From a virus, in IMG/VR virus record IMGVR_UViG_3300033148_003280, positions 1-53,722 of that record: a stretch of 53,722 nt of DNA. The stretch is one strand, 5' to 3'. Positions 5,004 to 45,504 of this stretch are shown here, one piece after another (within the stretch, counting starts at the first letter, position 1; each line of letters starts with the position of its first letter). The translations under genes were made by a program, and so were the position numbers. The notes beneath the pieces were generated by a model, which was not told where the DNA came from, made no database searches, and saw nothing but the letters and a program-made list of their open reading frames with translations.

Positions 5004-5309
5004 TTAATCGTTAGACTCATCTGTATCCTCTCCCGGCATCCCCTGAATTTTATCTTCGATCCATTTGATCGCTACCTTATGCGCCCGTACAAGCTCGTTA
5101 AGCGTCTTATAGGTGCCATCCCTTACCTTTCGCTCTAAAAGCTCGTGACAGGCGGTCACAAGCGTAGAGCAGTAAGATACTTCCGTGACCGTGGTTCCAT
5201 CGGGACAACTTTTCGTCGGCTTGCATTTAGCGACCTTGCCGACCATGAAGCCGTGGCTGTACGACTTCAGCGCAAGGGATGAATCAGGGATGTAAATCCA
5301 TTTACTCAT
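5004..5309 (-). CDS. Hypothetical protein, repressor-linked
   Basis: A 101-residue protein beginning MSKWIYIPDSS. The start at 5309 overlaps the repressor stop by 8 bases and has GGAGA upstream, so translation is probably coupled. It has three Cys in its first half (CKPTKSC, YCSTLVTAC) and a helical, charged second half. No family recognised. Its position immediately after the repressor suggests a lysogeny or immunity role, but this is inference only. Confidence 0.65.
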   Translation of the reverse strand: MSKWIYIPDSSLALKSYSHGFMVGKVAKCKPTKSCPDGTTVTEVSYCSTLVTACHELLERKVRDGTYKTLNELVRAHKVAIKWIEDKIQGMPGEDTDESND

Positions 5310-5514
5310 GCGCGGTCTCCGTTGATTTCGGCTCACTCAACAGCTCATCCAACGTGACCCCCAGCACTTCGGCGATCTTCTTAGCTTTTTCCGCCGTGCA
5401 ATCATTCCGGCCACTTTCGATATTCCCGATATGCCCCTCTGTTATACCCGTCTTATCGGATAAATCCCGTTGCGTCATTCCCTGTGATTCGCGTATCGCT
5501 TTGATGTTATTCAT
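5302..5514 (-). CDS. XRE/Cro-CI family repressor, single HTH domain
   Basis: A 70-residue helix-turn-helix protein: MNNIKAIRESQGMTQRDLSD ... TGITEGHIGNIESGRNDC ... AKKIAEVLGVTLDELL, the classic HTH_3 pattern. There is no C-terminal cleavage or oligomerisation domain, so it is Cro-sized. The upstream in-frame extension to 5739 is rejected because it runs through the promoter and operators. No Shine-Dalgarno precedes the ATG, and the minus-strand promoter predicts a transcript starting within a few bases of it, so the message is probably leaderless. It likely binds the TACTTG/CAAGTA sites at 5532-5631. Confidence 0.9.
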   Translation of the reverse strand: MNNIKAIRESQGMTQRDLSDKTGITEGHIGNIESGRNDCTAEKAKKIAEVLGVTLDELLSEPKSTETAHE

Positions 5515-5523
5515 AGTATATTT

Positions 5524-5552
5524 TATATAACATACTTGCGGAAATATGTCAA
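5524..5552 (-). promoter_or_regulatory. Repressor promoter
   Basis: On the minus strand TTGACA (5552-5547), a 17-base spacer and TATATA (5529-5524). The expected start near 5517 leaves almost no leader before the ATG at 5514. Confidence 0.75.
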
Positions 5553-5631
5553 GGGGTATCTCAGGATTGACGGGAAAATACTTTAAGAAGTAACCCGTAA
5601 GATACTTGACAAAAGATATTGCGGCAAGTAT
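5532..5631. promoter_or_regulatory. Candidate operator cluster
   Basis: Half-sites TACTTG at 5533-5538 and 5603-5608, CAAGTA at 5625-5630, and a dyad TACTT-TAAG-AAGTA at 5579-5592. TTGCGG is shared by the two promoter-proximal sites (5536-5541 and 5619-5624). The sites overlap both divergent promoters, as expected for a phage immunity switch. Confidence 0.6.
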
Positions 5632-5634
5632 AAT
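5606..5634 (+). promoter_or_regulatory. Rightward consensus sigma-70 promoter
   Basis: Exact TTGACA (5606-5611), a 17-base spacer and exact TATAAT (5629-5634). The -10 and -35 elements overlap the half-sites TACTTG and CAAGTA, so the repressor should shut it off. It drives the small plus-strand genes. Confidence 0.85.
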
Positions 5635-5661
5635 AAGTGTATCAAATACGAGGTGATGGAA

Positions 5662-5862
5662 ATGAGATACAAATTTACAGCCACGAAGTATGATAACCAA
5701 GGGCGGGAGGTTGATTGCAAACGCTTCCAGTATCAACACAAAGAAGCAGCCGAAGTCTTACGGGCGAGGGTGAAGGGAATTGAGATCACAGAAGACCTCG
5801 GGACATCCGCAACCGGATACACACCCATGTATCGTTGGGAATGCCGCTATCAGGATTACTAA
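5662..5862 (+). CDS. Small hypothetical protein, first rightward gene
   Basis: 66 residues starting MRYKFTATKYDNQGREVDCK. The ATG at 5662 is chosen because GAGGTGAT sits a few bases upstream, the same arrangement as the following genes; GTG 5653 and ATG 5656 lie within that site. It is the first gene after the consensus promoter, in the position of lambda cro or early regulators, but has no HTH. No family recognised. Confidence 0.7.
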   Translation: MRYKFTATKYDNQGREVDCKRFQYQHKEAAEVLRARVKGIEITEDLGTSATGYTPMYRWECRYQDY

Positions 5863-5872
5863 GCCATCACCA

Positions 5873-5892
5873 GCCGGGGACTGCCACCCGGC
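5873..5892 (+). other. Intergenic hairpin
   Basis: GCCGGG (5873-5878) pairs with CCCGGC (5887-5892) across 8 bases and is followed by CTTTGCTCC. It may be a weak terminator or an mRNA-stabilising stem between two small rightward genes. Confidence 0.4.
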
Positions 5893-5948
5893 CTTTGCTC
5901 CACGGGCCGTTATCGACCCGGCGAGGAAAGATAAAGGAAGGTGATGAA

Positions 5949-6158
5949 ATGAACGCGGAAACGGAAACACATCATGGATATCGGGGGTTTGAGATATTGC
6001 TCGACCAGGGGTTTTACAAGCAATGGTTTGTCAGGCGATATGCTACTCCGGGCAAAATCACGCGGGAAGGGACCACGCCAAGGTGTTTTTTCGGCAAACA
6101 TTACAAAACTCTTGGCCGTGCCAAAAGAGCAATCGACATGCATCTTAGAAAGAAATAA
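5949..6158 (+). CDS. Small hypothetical protein
   Basis: 69 residues, MNAETETHHGYRGFEILLD ... RAKRAIDMHLRKK. AAGGAAGGTGAT precedes the ATG by 3 bases, which fixes the start and rejects the upstream extension to 5835. The pattern of aromatic residues and a basic C-terminal helix resembles small phage DNA-binding or anti-host proteins, but no family is recognised. Confidence 0.7.
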   Translation: MNAETETHHGYRGFEILLDQGFYKQWFVRRYATPGKITREGTTPRCFFGKHYKTLGRAKRAIDMHLRKK

Positions 6159-6185
6159 CGCGGCGGCGATACGCGAGGTGTGGAG

Positions 6186-6395
6186 ATGAAGTTTAGAAGT
6201 AGCGATGGGGGAATTCAACTAAGGGACAACGATGGGGAAACAGTCATTATGAGGTTGTCGGCCAACGCCCATGACGAAAGCGATCCGGTTGAGCTTACGG
6301 TGTCGCAATTCAAAGGGGTAGAAGTCGAATGGCAAAAGACGATATCAACGCAATATATCATCGACCTCGTCAAAAAGCACGGTAAACCTGAATAG
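6186..6395 (+). CDS. Small hypothetical protein
   Basis: 69 residues beginning MKFRSSDGGIQLRDNDGETV. GAGGTGTGGAG lies before the ATG. It looks like a small beta-rich protein with a C-terminal helix (TQYIIDLVKKHGKPE). No family recognised. A strong terminator follows 10 bases after its stop. Confidence 0.65.
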   Translation: MKFRSSDGGIQLRDNDGETVIMRLSANAHDESDPVELTVSQFKGVEVEWQKTISTQYIIDLVKKHGKPE

Positions 6396-6404
6396 CCCAC
6401 ACCA

Positions 6405-6432
6405 GCCGACCCCTAACCGGGTCGGCCTTTTC
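6405..6432 (+). terminator. Rightward rho-independent terminator
   Basis: GCCGACCC (6405-6412) and GGGTCGGC (6419-6426) form an 8-bp stem with a 6-base loop, followed by CTTTTCC. It splits the rightward cluster in two. Confidence 0.85.
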
Positions 6433-6467
6433 CCCGGATGCCGGAATCCCCTCCCGGCATCCTGGGG
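6432..6467 (+). other. Long hairpin before a 46-residue gene
   Basis: CCCCGGATGCCGG pairs with CCGGCATCCTGGGG with one bulge. It immediately follows the terminator and precedes an AAGGATGTGATGAG ribosome binding site, so it could stabilise or gate the next message. Confidence 0.6.
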
Positions 6468-6487
6468 AAAGATAAGGATGTGATGAG

Positions 6488-6628
6488 ATGAAGTATGCAA
6501 ATGACAATTACTCACTGTGGAAAACAGCTTTACTCATAGCGATTAAGCATCATCGCTTAGGTGATATTGAATGGTCGCTTGAGCATCAGCCATTTTACTG
6601 GTCGCGGCTGATGCGTGATGGATTCTGA
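6488..6628 (+). CDS. 46-residue hypothetical protein
   Basis: ATG at 6488 to TGA at 6626-6628, preceded by AAGGATGTGATGAG, the site pattern of its neighbours. The peptide begins MKYANDNYSLWKTALLIAIK and contains several His and Trp residues (KHHRLGDIEWSLEHQPFYW). No family recognised. The ribosome binding site and neat gene order support it despite its small size. Confidence 0.6.
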   Translation: MKYANDNYSLWKTALLIAIKHHRLGDIEWSLEHQPFYWSRLMRDGF

Positions 6629-6646
6629 TAAAAGGAAGGTGATGAG

Positions 6647-6847
6647 ATGAAAAAGAAGTTACAGAAAATGGAAACCGAATTGAGGGCCATGGTTGAAACT
6701 CTTGAAGAAAAGGCAGGGGACGCATTTGATCGGGAAACGGAGACGGGAGATAATCGAGGACAGGAATTAGAAGATAAAGCCGCATTGCTGGAACAGGCGG
6801 CTGATTCAATATCGGAGGTGCATTATAATGAGCGAGATAACCTATGA
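6647..6847 (+). CDS. Small coiled-coil protein
   Basis: 66 residues, strongly charged and helical: MKKKLQKMETELRAMVETLE then an acidic linker and a second helix. AAAGGAAGGTGATGAG fixes the start. Its stop overlaps the next gene by 20 bases. It resembles the small Glu/Lys coiled-coil proteins frequent in phage early regions. Function unknown. Confidence 0.65.
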   Translation: MKKKLQKMETELRAMVETLEEKAGDAFDRETETGDNRGQELEDKAALLEQAADSISEVHYNERDNL

Positions 6848-7250
6848 AAAGGACAGGATGAAGGAACTCATCACCGCCAACAACAGCCTTGTTGACGAGG
6901 TGCGGGGGCAACGTGCCGAGGTTGAGAGGCTCGATAAGCGAGCCAATAGCCTTGAGAAAACAGCGCTTAAGATTGCAGGGCAACGCGATAAGGCACAGGC
7001 GACCAACGCCGAGCTGGTGGGGGCGTTGGGGGCGCTGCTTGATGACAGCGAGAACCGCCTCAAACGTGGCAACGCGGGTCAAGTGCTGTGTAGTACATAT
7101 CAAAGCATAGTGCATGCCAAGGCCCGTGCCACTCTCGCCAAGGCCAAGGGGAAAGAGACGTTACCATGTGGTAAGGAACCCTACCGGCCACACAGCGAAT
7201 GCCCCGACTTCGAGCCTAAGGGGAACGGGGGGGTAAATAAGGAAGAGTAA
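6828..7250 (+). CDS. Coiled-coil protein with Cys-containing tail
   Basis: 140 residues. An N-terminal coiled coil (about 5-85) contains EVERLDKRANSLEKTALK. The tail (LPCGKEPYRPHSECPDF) has two Cys and a His that could bind metal. GGAGGTGC lies 7 bases before the ATG. It is the last rightward gene and converges on the late block across the shared terminator region. No specific function recognised. Confidence 0.65.
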   Translation: MSEITYEKDRMKELITANNSLVDEVRGQRAEVERLDKRANSLEKTALKIAGQRDKAQATNAELVGALGALLDDSENRLKRGNAGQVLCSTYQSIVHAKARATLAKAKGKETLPCGKEPYRPHSECPDFEPKGNGGVNKEE

Positions 7251-7271
7251 ATTCCATACCGCCCGCACCCC

Positions 7272-7302
7272 AATACAAAACACCCCGGCATTTACCGGGG
7301 TG
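7272..7302 (-). terminator. Terminator of the leftward late block
   Basis: CACCCCGG (7281-7288) and CCGGGGTG (7295-7302) form an 8-bp stem with a 6-base loop. On the minus strand it is followed by TTTTGTATT. It may also slow rightward transcription from the other side. Confidence 0.8.
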
Positions 7303-7329
7303 CTCGCTACTGGCGTTTGAGGAGGGGAT

Positions 7330-7788
7330 TTAACCTAAAGGCTTAACTACTTCTGCGTAGAATTCCTGGAAGTCCTCATGATTAATTAATCCTACCGCCG
7401 ATGGATCGGCGCCTTCGTAGTATGTTTCCCACGTTTCAGGATATAAGTCCATTAGTTTCTCTTTCACCTTCGCTGCGATATTCGCAGCAACAACATCATA
7501 TCCTATTCCGATCACATCCTTCCATCCATCCGCTTTTTCATTACCAAGGATGCCGAGCGGTTCCAGCCAGCCTTCAATGTAACCTGCTATTTCGGCAACG
7601 TTGTCATCTCGGTCAGGCCCGACAAGTTCCGTCTCGATGAACAGCACAGCCTGGTCAATAGCAATATTGAACAGGCTCTGCTTCAGGTTGTCGACGTCGA
7701 ACTTGAAGTCATCGCTGTCGCAGCCGGAAAAGAAAAGCATGCTGACAAACAGCGTTGCGATAATGGGAATTGCAAGAATCTTTTTCAT
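7330..7788 (-). CDS. Phage lipoprotein, last gene of the late block
   Basis: 152 residues with a short basic start, a hydrophobic stretch and a lipobox (FFSGC, Cys near 23), so it should be exported and lipid-anchored. The mature part is acidic and helical. AGGAGG precedes the ATG. It sits beside the amidase, which suggests a role in lysis (outer-membrane step) or lysogenic conversion or superinfection exclusion. It is too long and not Pro-rich enough for a typical Rz1 spanin. Confidence 0.75.
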   Translation of the reverse strand: MKKILAIPIIATLFVSMLFFSGCDSDDFKFDVDNLKQSLFNIAIDQAVLFIETELVGPDRDDNVAEIAGYIEGWLEPLGILGNEKADGWKDVIGIGYDVVAANIAAKVKEKLMDLYPETWETYYEGADPSAVGLINHEDFQEFYAEVVKPLG

Positions 7789-7799
7789 CTGTTTTCCTC

Positions 7800-8450
7800 C
7801 TATGATGTAAATTTGTAATCCGGGTAATCTGCCCGGAAAGATTCTACTAATTGATTATACCACTCATTGAATTGACCGTAGTATCCGTGCATTGCCTGCC
7901 ATATGAACATCCGCATCAGGTCGCAGTTGACGTTATCACCGGGGCAGGATTTATGAGGATCGGGTACGCCGGGCACATACTTGGCTTCTCGATGTCCGAG
8001 CACTTGACGCACAGGCAGATTGAGCTTTCGGCAATATGTCGCGGCAAGTAACGCGACCGCCTTTTCGCGATCACCGCCAGGGTTCGGGCTTTCTCCAGGG
8101 TTCCTATTCTCATCAATGGTGTCGAAGTTCCCGATGACGCAGATACCGATACTATGTGAATTATCACCACGAACCTGAGCCGGCATTTTGTTGATGTTGC
8201 GGCCTAATTGAATAATTCCAGCGGGGAATCCCACATCGGGACGTATCGGCATATCGCCAATATTCACCGCGGCATTGTATCCGATTCCACTAAATCCCCG
8301 TTCGAGATGCCATTTGTGAATTTCTTCTGCATCACCCAGTCGGCTCCAGGAATGATGGATATAGATGCGGTCGATCCTGCGGGATTTCGGAATCGGCAAA
8401 TCATCCATTGATGCAAGGATCGGGAATTGTTGTGAATCAGTTGATCTCAT
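7800..8450 (-). CDS. N-acetylmuramoyl-L-alanine amidase (endolysin)
   Basis: 216 residues with an Amidase_2/PGRP fold. The zinc ligand pattern is clear: H32 (IYIHHSW), H153 (VLGHREA) and C169 (KSCPG), with GYNAAV and SIGICVIGNFD between them. It cleaves the amide bond between N-acetylmuramic acid and L-alanine in peptidoglycan. No signal peptide is seen, so release would need a holin. AGAGGAGG lies 10 bases before the start. It overlaps the glycosyltransferase-like gene upstream by 4 bases. A C-terminal tail of about 40 residues is rich in aromatic residues. Confidence 0.92.
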   Translation of the reverse strand: MRSTDSQQFPILASMDDLPIPKSRRIDRIYIHHSWSRLGDAEEIHKWHLERGFSGIGYNAAVNIGDMPIRPDVGFPAGIIQLGRNINKMPAQVRGDNSHSIGICVIGNFDTIDENRNPGESPNPGGDREKAVALLAATYCRKLNLPVRQVLGHREAKYVPGVPDPHKSCPGDNVNCDLMRMFIWQAMHGYYGQFNEWYNQLVESFRADYPDYKFTS

Positions 8451-37453: not shown

Positions 37454-37973
37454 GTTTCTTTTTCAGCTTCTCGAAAAACCTGTTGCTCAATTTCTTGTCG
37501 CTCATTAGAAGCCGGATCACTTCAACTGTTGATGCGCCAACCTCGTGTATCTCGTGGACTTCACCTGAGTGCTCCAGCTTGACTATCTCTCCAGGATCGA
37601 CGCCCTCCATTTTGCAAAGTAACTCAACTGCTCTGACTGCCGGGCCGTACTGCTTATCATTCAGCGACCTCATAAATGTTTCCCGGACTCGTTCCTTTGC
37701 TTCGCGCTTTTTGACCGGGCGATCCTCTGCTTCTTCGTCTTCCCACTTCTTATAGACCGCCTTGATGTATCTCTCAGCCGTTGTCCGGCACACAGTGTAT
37801 TTGTCTATAATGGCCCTGACTGTCTGTCTATAGCGTAACCCCGAACCTATCAGGGATTCGACAAACTCATGGCGCTCTTCCATCTCATACTTGTTTTTCG
37901 CGCCGTTGTGAGATATGGCCTTCCGCTTGACGGTCGGCTTCACCTTCTTCGGTTTTGGCTTTTGTCGCACCAT
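37428..37973 (-). CDS. Terminase small subunit-like DNA-binding protein
   Basis: 181 residues. Basic N-terminus, then a helix-turn-helix-like region (RYRQTVRAIIDKYTVCRTTA ERYIK, about 48-70) and a second helical half (AVRAVELLCKMEGVDPGE), typical of terminase small subunits. It is immediately upstream of the large subunit and overlaps it. It should recognise the packaging site. The start has no strong ribosome binding site. Confidence 0.75.
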   Translation of the reverse strand: MVRQKPKPKKVKPTVKRKAISHNGAKNKYEMEERHEFVESLIGSGLRYRQTVRAIIDKYTVCRTTAERYIKAVYKKWEDEEAEDRPVKKREAKERVRETFMRSLNDKQYGPAVRAVELLCKMEGVDPGEIVKLEHSGEVHEIHEVGASTVEVIRLLMSDKKLSNRFFEKLKKKHASNSDKK

Positions 37974-38082
37974 GCCACTTAGTTACCTTACAAATACAAT
38001 CCGCTGTTCTACGGTCACACACGGGGCAATACCTGATTATTTTGCCCACGTATCGAGACCCTGATGCACATGCTTTCCCCAT
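37885..38082 (-). CDS. Small zinc-binding hypothetical protein
   Basis: 65 residues beginning MGKACASGSRYVGKIIRYCP with CPVCDRRTADCICK, a zinc-ribbon-like cluster. AGGT precedes the ATG. It overlaps the terminase small subunit by 89 bases in another frame, which lowers confidence, but it would otherwise leave a 230-base gap. Function unknown. Confidence 0.45.
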   Translation of the reverse strand: MGKACASGSRYVGKIIRYCPVCDRRTADCICKVTKWHGATKAKTEEGEADRQAEGHISQRREKQV

Positions 38083-38208
38083 TATCTACCTCATACTGAT
38101 TGTTCAATATAACTATAATCATAATAATTTACTTCTTAATACTTACATCTTATTCCTACTCTTACTCTTAAGACTTACTCTTATATAATTTATATTCTAT
38201 ATATGCGG
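38083..38208. other. AT-rich spacer between methylase and terminase genes
   Basis: 126 bases with only A/T-rich direct repeats such as TTAAGAGTAAG and no gene. Candidate minus-strand promoter elements lie at its right edge. Confidence 0.55.
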
Positions 38209-38217
38209 TCATTTCAA
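38189..38217 (-). promoter_or_regulatory. Candidate terminase promoter
   Basis: TTGAAA (38217-38212), 17 bases, TATAAA (38194-38189) on the minus strand. AT-rich context raises the chance of a false match. Confidence 0.35.
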
Positions 38218-39390
38218 TTTACTCGCCTTTTGACCGGCGAAATCTTCCCAGCGCTTGATAATGACATCACAGTATTTCGGTTCGATCTCAATTGCTCGAC
38301 ATACCCGTTCGGTTTGCTCCGCTGCTATCACCTGTGAACCGGAACCAGCAAACGGCTCGTAGATTATTTCGTCTGGCTTCGTATGATTCATTATCGGGCG
38401 GGTGAATAGCTCGACCGGCTTCTGTGTGGGGTGTTCGCCTTTCCCTTCCCTTCCAACTTCCCATACCGAGGTCTGCGTCTTATCCCCATACCAAGGCGGT
38501 TGATTCCCCCGCTGCCAACCGTAGAAACATAGTTCGTGTTTCCAGTGATACATGCCACTACGAGTTAGCACAAGGCTCGGCTTCACCCAAATAATCTGCC
38601 TGTGAATTAGGATGTCAGCAGCAGCAGCAGCAGCAGCAGCAGCAAAAAACGTGCCTTGCGTCAACATCGGATGCCATAAATAAAAAGCGGTGTTGATTTT
38701 AAGATGCGGGACAGCGACCCGGATCGCAGACTCAAGAAATGCTTGCAGTTCTTTGCCATCTACCAAATCATCGTTTTTGATATCTTTATGCTTCGAATCT
38801 TTCAAGTTGACGTAATCAATCCCATAAGGTGGGTCTGTATTCATCAGGGCGGCCTTCTCCCCCTCCATCAACCGCTCAACATCCTCGGCCTTTGTGCTAT
38901 CCCCGCACATTACTCGATGCTTGCCGAGTTGCCATATCTCCCCGGTCTTAACTGTTGCCGGGGCTGATTCGGGAACAGCGTCCGGATCGGTGTTGCCGTC
39001 CTTCGGATCGGGCTTATACAACTCATCCAGATTCAACGCCTCAAACGCATCCGGGATATCCAGCTTGAACCCCTCAAGAATATTCTGTAAGTCGGGTAAG
39101 AATTCACCCGCGATATGCGGATTGTTTAATGTGACGTTGAGCGCCCGTTCCTCTGATTCGTCAATGTCTATGATGACGGCATCCGTCTTGACTTCCCCTA
39201 ATTCCAGGAGCACCCTCAATCGCTGATGCCCTCCGACAATATTACCGGTACGCTCATTCACGATAATGGGTTCGACAATGCCCCAGCGTTTGATGCTGGC
39301 TTTCAGTCCCGCCATCGCCTTATCGCTGATCGTACGCGGGTTATAATCAGCGGGTTTCATTCCAGCGACATATCGTTCTTCAATGCGCAT
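38209..39390 (-). CDS. ParB-domain DNA methyltransferase
   Basis: 393 residues. Residues 8-60 form a ParB-like nuclease fold (PADYNPRTISDKAMAGLKAS, GNIVGGHQRLRVL). The second half is a beta-class DNA methylase: MNTDPPYGIDYVN (D186) and YEPFAGSGSQVIAAEQT. Such ParB-methylase fusions are common beside phage terminases. The start at MRIEERY is preferred because a separate Gly-rich ORF ends 4 bases upstream; the in-frame extension to 39552 starts with TTG. Contains a CAG9 microsatellite (poly-Ala). Likely methylates adenine. Confidence 0.9.
   Translation of the reverse strand: MRIEERYVAGMKPADYNPRTISDKAMAGLKASIKRWGIVEPIIVNERTGNIVGGHQRLRVLLELGEVKTDAVIIDIDESEERALNVTLNNPHIAGEFLPDLQNILEGFKLDIPDAFEALNLDELYKPDPKDGNTDPDAVPESAPATVKTGEIWQLGKHRVMCGDSTKAEDVERLMEGEKAALMNTDPPYGIDYVNLKDSKHKDIKNDDLVDGKELQAFLESAIRVAVPHLKINTAFYLWHPMLTQGTFFAAAAAAAAADILIHRQIIWVKPSLVLTRSGMYHWKHELCFYGWQRGNQPPWYGDKTQTSVWEVGREGKGEHPTQKPVELFTRPIMNHTKPDEIIYEPFAGSGSQVIAAEQTERVCRAIEIEPKYCDVIIKRWEDFAGQKASKLK
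38616..38642. repeat. CAG x9 microsatellite encoding a poly-Ala tract
   Basis: Nine uninterrupted CAG units on the plus strand encode Ala codons on the minus strand (FFAAAAAAAAA) inside the methylase. A change in copy number keeps the frame. Confidence 0.9.
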
Positions 39391-39394
39391 GTGT

Positions 39395-39547
39395 TTACCT
39401 ACCGCGTCCGCTGCCCCTTCCGCCGCCATCGCCGTAACCGGGCCCCTTCCCGCTACCGCAAGGCTGATCATTCCCATTCCCTCTCCCGCCGCCATCAATC
39501 CCCTTGCCCTTGCCCCTGCCGTCCTCTGGGTGACTTCCTGTTGCCAT
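39395..39547 (-). CDS. 50-residue Gly-rich protein
   Basis: ATG at 39547 has AGGAG 6 bases upstream; TAA at 39395-39397. The peptide MATGSHPEDGRGKGKGIDGG ... GRGSGRGR is about half Gly with Arg/Lys and no regular secondary structure. The longer methylase frame (TTG 39552) runs through the same bases in another frame. The RBS favours this ORF, but the GC-rich composition could create it by chance. It may be the first late gene. Confidence 0.4.
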   Translation of the reverse strand: MATGSHPEDGRGKGKGIDGGGRGNGNDQPCGSGKGPGYGDGGGRGSGRGR

Positions 39548-39595: not shown

Positions 39596-39625
39596 GGGGC
39601 CGAGCAGGTGGCCCCACCCGGCCCC
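39596..39625 (-). other. Hairpin in the late leader
   Basis: GGGGCCG (39596-39602) pairs with CGGCCCC (39619-39625) across a 16-base loop. No U-run follows on the minus strand. It lies between the terminator at 39654 and the Gly-rich ORF. Confidence 0.5.
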
Positions 39626-39653
39626 GCTTGCACATTCAGACAGGAGGTTACGG

Positions 39654-39707
39654 AATAAAAATAGGCATCTCAAATGGGTCAGATTACCGACCGATCCGAG
39701 ATGCCTA
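39654..39707 (-). terminator. Strong leftward terminator upstream of the late block
   Basis: TAGGCATCTC (39662-39671) and GAGATGCCTA (39698-39707) are a perfect 10-bp inverted repeat; an inner GGTC/GACC pair extends it. On the minus strand the stem runs into TATTTTTATT. It sits between a promoter and the late genes. Confidence 0.85.
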
Positions 39708-39890
39708 CATGGGTCTTCAAGCTACCGTGCAACTATAAATATTGCAACTGGCTATCGTCTATAAAATGTGCATTAATCATCTTCAGGTACTACGATATCG
39801 GATGATTTGCAATAAAAATGCTGGGGCCATAATTCCTCATTGATGACCTTCGCGCAGATCTCGTCTATCTCCCGAATCAATTCATCCATC
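39655..39890 (-). ncRNA. Candidate short leader transcript (6S-like)
   Basis: Bounded by a promoter (TTGACA-17-TATATC) starting near 39890 and a strong terminator ending near 39655, about 235 bases. A 38-residue ORF (39773-39889, MDELIREIDEICAKV...) would begin at the first base and has no ribosome binding site, so the unit is treated as non-coding or leader. Its place in front of the late genes copies lambda pR'-6S-tR'. Confidence 0.45.
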
Positions 39891-39896
39891 AATCTG

Positions 39897-39925
39897 GATA
39901 TACCACGAATCTTTTCTATTGTCAA
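39897..39925 (-). promoter_or_regulatory. Leftward promoter upstream of the late block
   Basis: Exact TTGACA (39925-39920), 17 bases, TATATC (39902-39897). Probably makes the short leader transcript and, when antiterminated, the late genes. Confidence 0.75.
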
Positions 39926-39933
39926 ACAGGAGA

Positions 39934-39952
39934 CCCCCGAAAGTTTCGGGGG
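39934..39952 (-). terminator. Palindromic hairpin before the late promoter
   Basis: CCCCCGAAA and TTTCGGGGG are perfect arms around one G. On the minus strand TCTCCTGTTTG follows. Likely ends transcripts from the right. Confidence 0.55.
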
Positions 39953-40064
39953 TAATGGTTGATATTGCCTGTAAGATCGGGCGGTTTTCAGTATCGCGGC
40001 TCTCCGTATGCCACTCCGACACACAGGTCGTAGCCACCCTACTCACCGCCCTGAATCAGCTGAT

Positions 40065-40070
40065 ATTATA
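40065..40070 (-). promoter_or_regulatory. Possible extended -10 promoter
   Basis: TGGTATAAT on the minus strand (TATAAT at 40070-40065) with no good -35. It follows a hairpin terminator. Confidence 0.3.
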
Positions 40071-40077
40071 CCACGAG

Positions 40078-40100
40078 AAACCCCCGTTCGACCACGGGGG
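40078..40100 (-). terminator. Leftward hairpin terminator
   Basis: CCCCCGT (40081-40087) pairs with ACGGGGG (40094-40100), loop TCGACC, followed on the minus strand by TTTCTCG. Ends the early leftward genes. Confidence 0.6.
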
Positions 40101-40124
40101 CAACCATATGGTTAGACGAAAATA

Positions 40125-40382
40125 CTATCGGGAGTAATACCTTAAGCGCATCTTAATGGCACCGTGCTGCCTGATGAAATCAATCACACGCTGGGCGTCC
40201 TTTATTGTCTCTTCATCAGTGGCGGCTGCAGCAATACCTTCAAAGAATGGGATGTCATCATGATCCATCATACTCCAACCCGAATCTTCAGCCGAGAGAT
40301 ATTTTTTCTCCACTGCTAACTTGAGGCCATGGCCCAATGAACCACCAATGATGGGAACTCGATAAACTAATTTTGCACTCAT
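40125..40382 (-). CDS. Small hypothetical protein
   Basis: 85 residues starting MSAKLVYRVPIIGGSLGHGL after GAGGAGGAA. The longer frame to 40442 is not used. Contains SMMDHDDIPFFEG and a C-terminal helix with basic end (RLRYYSR). No family recognised. Confidence 0.6.
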   Translation of the reverse strand: MSAKLVYRVPIIGGSLGHGLKLAVEKKYLSAEDSGWSMMDHDDIPFFEGIAAAATDEETIKDAQRVIDFIRQHGAIKMRLRYYSR

Positions 40383-40502: not shown

Positions 40503-40925
40503 TCACCTACTCAAAAAGAATTCCTTGCACCACGGCAAGTAAGTTTTGATCCGGTACGCTAACGATGACCGGTACTTGACCTCTGCCTCTAATGCTTTAA
40601 CCAAATCATCCGGCATGGCTCTTGCGATCACATAACACGCATCCATGACCTGTTTTGTGGTTCTGCCGCATCTGCTAAATCCCCGGATCGTATTCTCGCT
40701 CATCATCTCCTCATCGTGATTGAGCGGAAATTGAACCGGCTTATCGGGTGGCGTTGATTCAACTATAATGCCCTTACGGATAAGGCCGCCAAATATTTTA
40801 TTGAAGCGATCCCTGTCAAATACCGTCCCCGATTCGTTCGTTTTGCATCCCTCGGTTTTGCCAGGCTCAGGCACCCCCCGCGACTTAGCTTCATCGGACG
40901 CCCTCATCAAATCGTTAAACATCAT
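40503..40925 (-). CDS. Hypothetical protein with possible internal start
   Basis: 140 residues from MMFNDLMRASDEAKSRG; GGAGG lies 6 bases before the first ATG. A second AGGAG-ATGATG (MSENTIRGFSRCGRTTKQ) occurs near residue 74 and could make a shorter product. Contains GLIRKGIIVESTPPD, a wHTH-like turn. The start overlaps the previous stop as ATGATG. No family recognised. Confidence 0.6.
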   Translation of the reverse strand: MMFNDLMRASDEAKSRGVPEPGKTEGCKTNESGTVFDRDRFNKIFGGLIRKGIIVESTPPDKPVQFPLNHDEEMMSENTIRGFSRCGRTTKQVMDACYVIARAMPDDLVKALEAEVKYRSSLAYRIKTYLPWCKEFFLSR

Positions 40926-41026
40926 CTTCCACCTCCACAAGTTTGAATATGCCTTCGTGCATCGTCAATAAATTCCCACCCCAGTTTTTCACACCGCGCC
41001 TCAATCTTCTTCAAGCAATCTTTCAT
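40922..41026 (-). CDS. 34-residue hypothetical peptide
   Basis: ATG at 41026 follows GGAGGAGTGCGAAG; the TGA overlaps the next ATG. The peptide is MKDCLKKIEARCEKLGWEFI ... RHIQTCGGGR, helical with three Cys. It also overlaps the preceding gene. No family recognised. Confidence 0.5.
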   Translation of the reverse strand: MKDCLKKIEARCEKLGWEFIDDARRHIQTCGGGR

Positions 41027-43715: not shown

Positions 43716-44033
43716 CTATCGCGCCCCCGTAATATGCCTGCCCCCATCCATGAAGCCGACATCGATAGCGCGACCCGCGATAACGATCTTGTTGAGCAGC
43801 TCCAGTCGCGGGAATGATATCGCACGGGACTTCATCCCCGCACGCTTAATGTAATTGCGCTTCTCAAGCGCCCGCACATGATCGACTATTGTTTTTATGG
43901 TAACACTAAAAACTTCAGCAGCCTCACGATATGTCGGAGCGTAACCATGACGCTGACGGAATGCCACGTAGAAGTTATAAATTTCAAGCTGCCTTTCGGT
44001 CGGCGGCGTGTCTTGTGTTATTGCGATTCCCAT
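43716..44033 (-). CDS. LexA-like winged-helix DNA-binding protein
   Basis: 105 residues. PTERQLEIYNFYVAFRQRHG YAPTYREAAEVF and TIVDHVRALEKRNYIKRAGM match the LexA N-terminal wHTH. No Ser/Lys peptidase domain follows, so it is not self-cleaving. It may repress or activate this operon or the late unit. A start with GGTGAAATA upstream. Good candidate for a phage regulator. Confidence 0.7.
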   Translation of the reverse strand: MGIAITQDTPPTERQLEIYNFYVAFRQRHGYAPTYREAAEVFSVTIKTIVDHVRALEKRNYIKRAGMKSRAISFPRLELLNKIVIAGRAIDVGFMDGGRHITGAR

Positions 44034-44536: not shown

Positions 44537-45064
44537 TCAATCGAGTAGGATTGGCTTTAACGTCTCATCCCATGACCCCAAAGGGAAAATCATCTTTGGC
44601 AAACAATCGCGATCTTCGTATTCCCGCCAATCACCATCTTTGAACTGATACCATAATTTCCCATCCCTAATTTCATATTCAATGTCTTCCATTCTTAACT
44701 CATCCTCCAGTAATTCAAGCGGCTTCCAAACAACCCATACTTTCCGATAATGCCGCTCCATTTTCCGGTCCGGTACCCTCAAATCAATTGTATCCCGCAC
44801 CCAACCAGCCGTTCGGTCATGTACGCACTTGAACCCTTCGCCGAACACAAATAACACAGTCCCGTAGGGGTAATCCCACATCAAATCAGGGGACACAGCG
44901 CACCAGTTCCATCCCCACGACTCATCAGGCGGGTCCGGGCAAGCGGGATCAGCAACCAAGTTGCCCCAGCCATCGTTTTCAGCCGCCCAGTAGTATGTAA
45001 CCTTGTGCTCCGTGGACTGCGGCAAGGGGAGCAGGAATAACAGGGCTATGAGGATGTGGATCAT
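44537..45064 (-). CDS. Exported 3D-domain-like protein
   Basis: 175 residues with a short signal peptide (MIHILIALLFLLPLPQS). VTYYWAAENDGWGNLVADPA ... CAVSPDLMWDYPYGTVLFVF ... CVHDRTAGWVRDTIDLRVP resembles the 3D (MltA/RlpA) domain, whose three Asp residues may bind metal or glycan. An exported glycan-active protein among early genes is odd. Could assist peptidoglycan cutting. Only the mature half is matched by eye. Confidence 0.55.
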   Translation of the reverse strand: MIHILIALLFLLPLPQSTEHKVTYYWAAENDGWGNLVADPACPDPPDESWGWNWCAVSPDLMWDYPYGTVLFVFGEGFKCVHDRTAGWVRDTIDLRVPDRKMERHYRKVWVVWKPLELLEDELRMEDIEYEIRDGKLWYQFKDGDWREYEDRDCLPKMIFPLGSWDETLKPILLD

Positions 45065-45504
45065 AACTCCTCCTTGGTTATATACTTCGCAATGTCCTCC
45101 GGCAACTCGCCTGCAAGGAACGCGGTGATGACGGCATCACGTAAGCTCACATCAGCTAAACTCTCGGATTTACACCATTCACCCATTATATCTTCAGCAA
45201 TCACGCAAGACCTCCACTCAATGCTACGGCAGCCGCCCGGCCCCTCAGCAGGAAGCAAAGCATGCCAAACCTCCACCGCCCCCGTCACCCTGACCCGGCG
45301 GCGACCGGTGCCACATTCTGGGAAACGACGATTGCATATGCACTGGTCACCTTTTTTGCCAAGCCGTGGCATTGTTTCATATTCGTCGCCACCATCCTGA
45401 TACCAGTCCTCTTGCAATATGCCTGTCCCCTTACACTTGTCACACTTCACCTCGCGCACCTCGCTGAAGTGGAAGCATAGGCCGCGTAAGTTATTCAGGT
45501 TCAT
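45061..45504 (-). CDS. Hypothetical protein with DnaJ-like zinc knuckle
   Basis: 147 residues. VKCDKCKGTGILQED is a DnaJ-type CxxCxGxG repeat unit, followed by CICNRRFPEC. The C-terminal half is helical (ADVSLRDAVITAFLAGELPE). No J domain. Overlaps the next gene (ATGA). Function unknown. Confidence 0.55.
   Translation of the reverse strand: MNLNNLRGLCFHFSEVREVKCDKCKGTGILQEDWYQDGGDEYETMPRLGKKGDQCICNRRFPECGTGRRRVRVTGAVEVWHALLPAEGPGGCRSIEWRSCVIAEDIMGEWCKSESLADVSLRDAVITAFLAGELPEDIAKYITKEEL

Follow-up and report, generated by a model that had tools for sequence, protein, structure and literature searches.

Does the promoter-terminator pair that stands in front of the virion genes of this phage act as an antitermination switch for late transcription, as in lambda, or does it have another function at the boundary between two gene blocks? 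To our knowledge, few phages have had their late control worked out in detail. The window, that is, the whole stretch of DNA analysed here (53,722 nucleotides), is a 53.7-kb IMG/VR record in which almost every gene is leftward (minus strand). The recognisable virion genes encode a portal/minor head protein, terminase, and tape measure, and the other recognised products are RecT, an HNH protein, and a LexA-type DNA-binding domain. The initial annotation described a 32-kb leftward late block, and this was correct: the block extends from 39.5 to 7.3 kb (~32 kb), and its genes for methyltransferase, terminase, portal, and tail tape measure share that orientation. In a phage genome that reads mostly in one direction, the segment in front of the block most likely marks the boundary between early and late genes.

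Searches of phage and plasmid DNA gave no match, and no near relative was present in the phage collection. IMG/VR was queried with the terminase, small terminase, portal, methyltransferase, the 38-residue ORF described below (orfB), a neighbouring ORF, the LexA-like protein, and the terminator pattern; neither these queries nor two GTDB genome scans gave a relative spanning the junction. They returned a single close relative, a 4.8-kb IMG/VR contig (L002) whose terminase and portal are ~80% identical and which stops short of the junction, together with distant methyltransferases (L003-L007). In L005, a hairpin precedes the methyltransferase gene, but it is placed several bases from the T-run and has no matching promoter unit, and L005 was rejected as a counterpart.

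The promoter, hereafter promoter B (39925-39897, minus strand), was found exactly as first described, with TTGACA at 39925-39920, a 17-nt spacer, and TATATC at 39902-39897. In addition, TGG before the -10 forms an extended -10, and the predicted +1 is near 39890. Promoter B matches the consensus at 10 of 12 positions; its -10 lacks the highly conserved last T, which is why a simple promoter scan missed it. Match counting was unimpressive, with 11 sites of 10/12 or better on the minus strand versus 8.2 expected by chance. When scored with a weight matrix of sigma-70 weights, promoter B reached 12.5 and ranked fifth of all minus-strand positions. About 0.014 sites as good would be expected in its 573-nt gap at the genome composition, and a similar maximum was reached in 3% of the simulations at local composition.

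The intrinsic terminator (39654-39707, minus strand) consists of a stem-loop at 39707-39662 and a U-run at 39661-39655, with the tail TATTTTTATT. The strong stem and U-run of the initial description were both confirmed, whereas its stem of 10 bp was an understatement: the stem has 15 outer and 6 inner pairs (-32.1 to -32.5 kcal/mol). The fold has a z of -6.55, with none of 200 shuffles as good, and it was the strongest T-tailed minus-strand hairpin found in a fold scan of the whole window. No T-run is present on the other strand of the hairpin. The stem begins 183 nt from the predicted start (~39890), in agreement with the earlier figure of about 190, and the distance from that start to the end of the U-run is ~235 nt. 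Both promoter B and the terminator exceed chance.

Several elements had been overlooked, namely an ORF at the predicted +1, a second promoter candidate, and other hairpins. The ORF, orfB (39889-39773, minus strand; 38 aa, MDELIREIDEICAKVINEELWPQHFYCKSSDIVVPEDD), has its ATG one base from the predicted +1 (39890) and no Shine-Dalgarno sequence. If promoter B is used, the orfB mRNA would be leaderless, as is the lambda cI mRNA from pRM. Its codon score (0.269 per codon) is above that of 70% of real coding windows and exceeds those of all 126 stop-free out-of-frame windows. Against three composition nulls, its codon usage gave p values of 0.001-0.014, uncorrected for the number of frames. No homologues of orfB were found. 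The short transcript probably serves as mRNA of this leaderless ORF rather than as a 6S-like RNA. An 83-aa GTG ORF (39773-40024) was also considered; by the codon test, it is not coding as a whole.

We lean, with slightly less than even confidence, toward an early/late boundary unit in which a small leaderless gene would be closed by a strong insulating terminator. This reading is favoured because it needs the fewest unseen parts to account for the ATG position, the coding signal, and the strong stop, and it is supported by a promoter and a terminator that are beyond chance and by an ORF of gene-like codon usage whose ATG is one base from the predicted +1. Counting against it are the missing homologue and Shine-Dalgarno sequence of orfB, the lack of correction for frames in the codon p values, and the absent last T in the -10 of promoter B.

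The second promoter candidate, promoter A (40065-40073, minus strand), has a perfect extended -10, TGGTATAAT, and no -35; about 0.12 sites of its score are expected in the gap. Promoters A and B have ten bases, TCGTGGTATA, in common that occur nowhere else in the window, and a perfect palindrome, ATCAGCTGAT, comes after promoter A (40055-40064). A possible 54-aa ORF with a GTG start, orfA (39882-40046, minus strand; later GTGs at 40037 and 40022), ends in a TGA that overlaps the start of orfB (ATGGATGA), an overlap typical of coupled genes. If promoter B were fortuitous, orfA and orfB could be a small operon of overlapping genes whose transcription begins at promoter A or further upstream, with the stem-loop serving as the early-block terminator. 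We consider this improbable: the coding-like composition of orfA, which would speak for it, is weak and marginal (p 0.02-0.06), orfA lacks a good ribosome site, two strong hairpins would have to lie within its coding sequence, and promoter A, despite its perfect extended -10, is without a -35 and is outscored by promoter B.

Hairpin B (39933-39953, minus strand), a perfect GC hairpin (ACCCCCGAAACTTTCGGGGGT, -15.2 kcal/mol) with a weak U-tail, adjoins promoter B on its upstream side. Between promoter A and hairpin B is a structured segment of 103 nt (39955-40057, minus strand; -39.5 kcal/mol, z -3.15), which forms a long interrupted hairpin closed by GGGCGGT/ACCGCCC. The segment is flanked by a promoter-like site on its upstream side and a perfect GC hairpin on its downstream side, and it might be a small regulatory or put-like RNA that starts at promoter A and stops near hairpin B. 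In put-type antiterminator RNA, the nascent transcript carries a pair of neighbouring put hairpins whose sequence is known. An Rfam search of the segment gave no match, the faint ones being far below the gathering scores; its fold z is modest and the U-tail of hairpin B is poor, and such an RNA control module appears very unlikely to us. Two further GC hairpins were found on the minus strand. The one at 40080-40101 (-17.4 kcal/mol) lies past the stop codon that closes the last upstream gene (end at 40125) and is probably the gene-end hairpin of that gene. The other, at 39597-39626 (14 bp, -30.9 kcal/mol), is downstream of the terminator, has no U-run, and is a possible leader structure of the late mRNA.

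A promoter of the same form as promoter B was found in the divergent repressor region that, with a plus-strand operon, occupies 5.3-7.25 kb. In the lysogeny-switch-like part of this region (5302-5670), an HTH repressor gene on the minus strand (ATG ~5514) has its own promoter (5552-5524; TTGACA-17-TATATA with TG), which ends ~10 bases before the probable ATG. The shared form and the distance of about ten bases to the ATG support the boundary unit.

The same region and others of the window contain additional elements. A consensus TTGACA-17-TATAAT promoter on the plus strand (5606-5634) is divergent from the repressor gene, and TACTT-N4-AAGTA-like sites at 5533 and 5579 are possible operators, as is a related TACTT half-site at 5603. 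The operon at 5660-7250 contains about six small genes, none of them recognised and most with GGTGATGAAATG-type start signals; they are the sole clear plus-strand genes of the window and could encode a late regulator. A CACCCCGG/CCGGGGTG hairpin without a U-run is situated between the convergent gene ends at 7250-7330. At 7854-7862, a perfect extended -10 within GTGGTATAAT, with the same ten bases as promoter A, precedes the lipoprotein-like last leftward gene (7330-7788). The top minus-strand promoter of the window, TTGACA-17-TAAAAT at 50191-50163, stands before an HNH endonuclease gene, with a few bases between it and the ATG (50149).

On the other side of the terminator, the first late ORF (39395-39547, minus strand; 50 aa, Gly-rich) is coding-like (0.197 per codon) and has the Shine-Dalgarno sequence AGGAGA. 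The first large gene (38209-39390, minus strand; start judged from the sequence as the ATG at 39390) encodes a ParB-N and N6/N4 DNA methyltransferase. The small methyltransferase operon comes right after the terminator and its own promoter is no better than a weak match, so that the operon would depend on read-through; this counts against the boundary unit and is the strongest point in favour of read-through under regulation. A rival late promoter candidate precedes the terminase genes (38217-38189, minus strand; TTGAAA-17-TATAAA); it ranked sixth on the minus strand by the weight matrix (P 0.018 for such a maximum at local composition) and sits downstream of the terminator in a gap of 22.5% GC. 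Since this candidate is past the terminator, antitermination would not be needed for most late genes. The initial annotation had named a main late promoter elsewhere, for example at 38.2 kb, as a finding against its own reading; a comparable candidate, predicted from the sequence, is present there. Its position before the terminase genes, together with the failure to find a Q-like gene (below), supports the boundary unit.

The AT-rich gap itself (38100-38210) contains repeated TCTTAAKACTTAC-like words and directly precedes a small Cys-rich ORF (37885-38082) and a probable small terminase gene; it may serve as a late promoter region or as a packaging site. The word TTAAGAAGTAA raised the suspicion of a shared repressor operator at 38.1 kb, which did not hold up.

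The alternative first proposed for this locus is Q-like antitermination, in which promoter B would be the late promoter, polymerase would normally stop at 39655, and a phage protein of an unrecognised family would load at the promoter to give read-through into the 32-kb late block. A Q antiterminator gene is usually just upstream of its promoter-terminator unit, and each Q protein has its own specific Q-binding element between -35 and -10. Most early genes and several genes of the divergent operon were searched with Pfam and PHROGs profiles, and none was recognised as coding for a Q, N, or AlpA-like protein, the same outcome as in the initial annotation, where no Q homologue had been recognised. 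The single Q-like PHROG match (45061-45504) comprised a 15-residue Cys motif with an E of 0.047; PDB searches gave no support for a Q-like protein, and AlphaFold models of this gene and of 40503-40928 were too poor to use (pLDDT near 40). The LexA-like regulator (43716-44033), suggested earlier as a substitute for Q, does have a real LexA-type DNA-binding domain, with no peptidase domain, but nothing linked it to the promoter-terminator site. Because the known Q families have no sequence similarity among them (PMC9371919), the profile result is weak negative evidence, and a new family could escape such searches.

A sigma-dependent pause element was sought as a hexamer whose second base is A and whose sixth is T (A2/T6), a rule with which CACGAT of alpB complies (PMC9371919). 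The AACGAT of lambda also satisfies the rule, and no A2/T6 hexamer was found from +1 to +18 of promoter B. The pause-element score was non-discriminating: AACGAT itself ranked only fourth in lambda by plain score, so that the A2/T6 result combined with this score leaves room for a pause element. In favour of Q-like antitermination are also a layout like that of lambda pR'-tR', including a short transcript that overlaps an ORF (orf-64 in lambda), comparable layouts that operate with AlpA (PMC7969949, PMC9371919) and GafZ (PMC11150451), and the lack of a good promoter for the first late operon past the terminator. When these points are weighed against the failure to recognise an antiterminator protein, the missing hexamer, the unusable models, and the candidate at 38.2 kb, Q-like antitermination is in our view a real but minority possibility. 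Unlikely, in our estimate, is a combined form, in which a new antiterminator unrelated in sequence to known ones (a protein or the upstream structured RNA) would load polymerase at promoter B and drive the 32-kb late block through the very strong terminator, while a 38-aa regulator was translated from the short transcript as leaderless mRNA.

In the boundary unit that we prefer, host RNA polymerase would start at promoter B and make a transcript whose 5' end falls on or within one base of the orfB AUG, leaderless in the manner of cI, and whose end is set by the strong intrinsic terminator. Polymerases that come in from genes further upstream (53 to 40 kb) would also be halted by the terminator, and the virion genes would thereby be insulated. 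Most late genes, from the terminase onward, would start at the separate promoter near 38.2 kb, and limited read-through or a regulator may add to its output. The parts are real, and the analysis shows the sequence elements, their statistics, and the coding-like composition of orfB; activity of the promoters and the terminator in the host, translation of orfB, and the way in which the late genes are switched on are inferred. Since Q families cannot be found through sequence similarity, a promoter-terminator pair before a late block is a useful flag for a place at which an unknown antiterminator might act. If the present pair is instead the frame of a small leaderless gene closed by an insulating stop, an arrangement of this kind does not have to imply antitermination, and similar scans should be read with this caution.

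Among known systems, the AlpA-controlled PalpB-tB of Pseudomonas aeruginosa likewise has a promoter, then an intrinsic terminator, then the controlled genes (PMC7969949, PMC9371919). However, the AlpA site GGGACG and the -10-like CACGAT at -1 to +5 have no evident counterpart here, and tB is described as a weak terminator, whereas the one here is very strong. GafZ acts at PgtaT-terGTA of the Caulobacter gene transfer agent, where a promoter and a terminator also come before a virion gene cluster; no palindrome like that of GafZ was seen between the -35 and -10 here, terGTA is located downstream of the first gene of the cluster, unlike the terminator here, and PgtaT has a poor -35 with activation by GafY/IHF, whereas the -35 of promoter B is perfect (PMC11150451).

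The unit resembles lambda pR'-tR' in its sigma-70-type promoter, short length, intrinsic terminator with a further hairpin inside the loop, and late genes on the same strand. Two features of the Q-type layout are present, a promoter on the late-block strand and an intrinsic terminator between it and the late genes. The unit spans ~235 nt, versus 194 nt for pR'-6S-tR' of lambda. When lambda was examined by the same measures, pR' was the best site between Q and S (11.5 versus 12.5 for promoter B), and its unit contained the annotated orf-64; the resemblance in layout is therefore fair, and an ORF in the unit is compatible with Q-type control. The differences are that the ORF here starts at the predicted +1, that no Q gene was recognised and no clear -10-like pause element seen, that there is an extra promoter candidate past the terminator, and that the late block opens with methyltransferase and terminase genes rather than lysis genes. 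Of the pR'-6S-tR' reading, the layout stands, but the antitermination step drew no support: no Q-type protein was recognised among the genes searched, no A2/T6 hexamer was seen from +1 to +18, and a promoter candidate is present at 38.2 kb. Phage morons are single genes with their own promoter and terminator. Judged by sequence only, the unit has this likeness too: a promoter and a terminator of its own flank the small orfB between two gene blocks.
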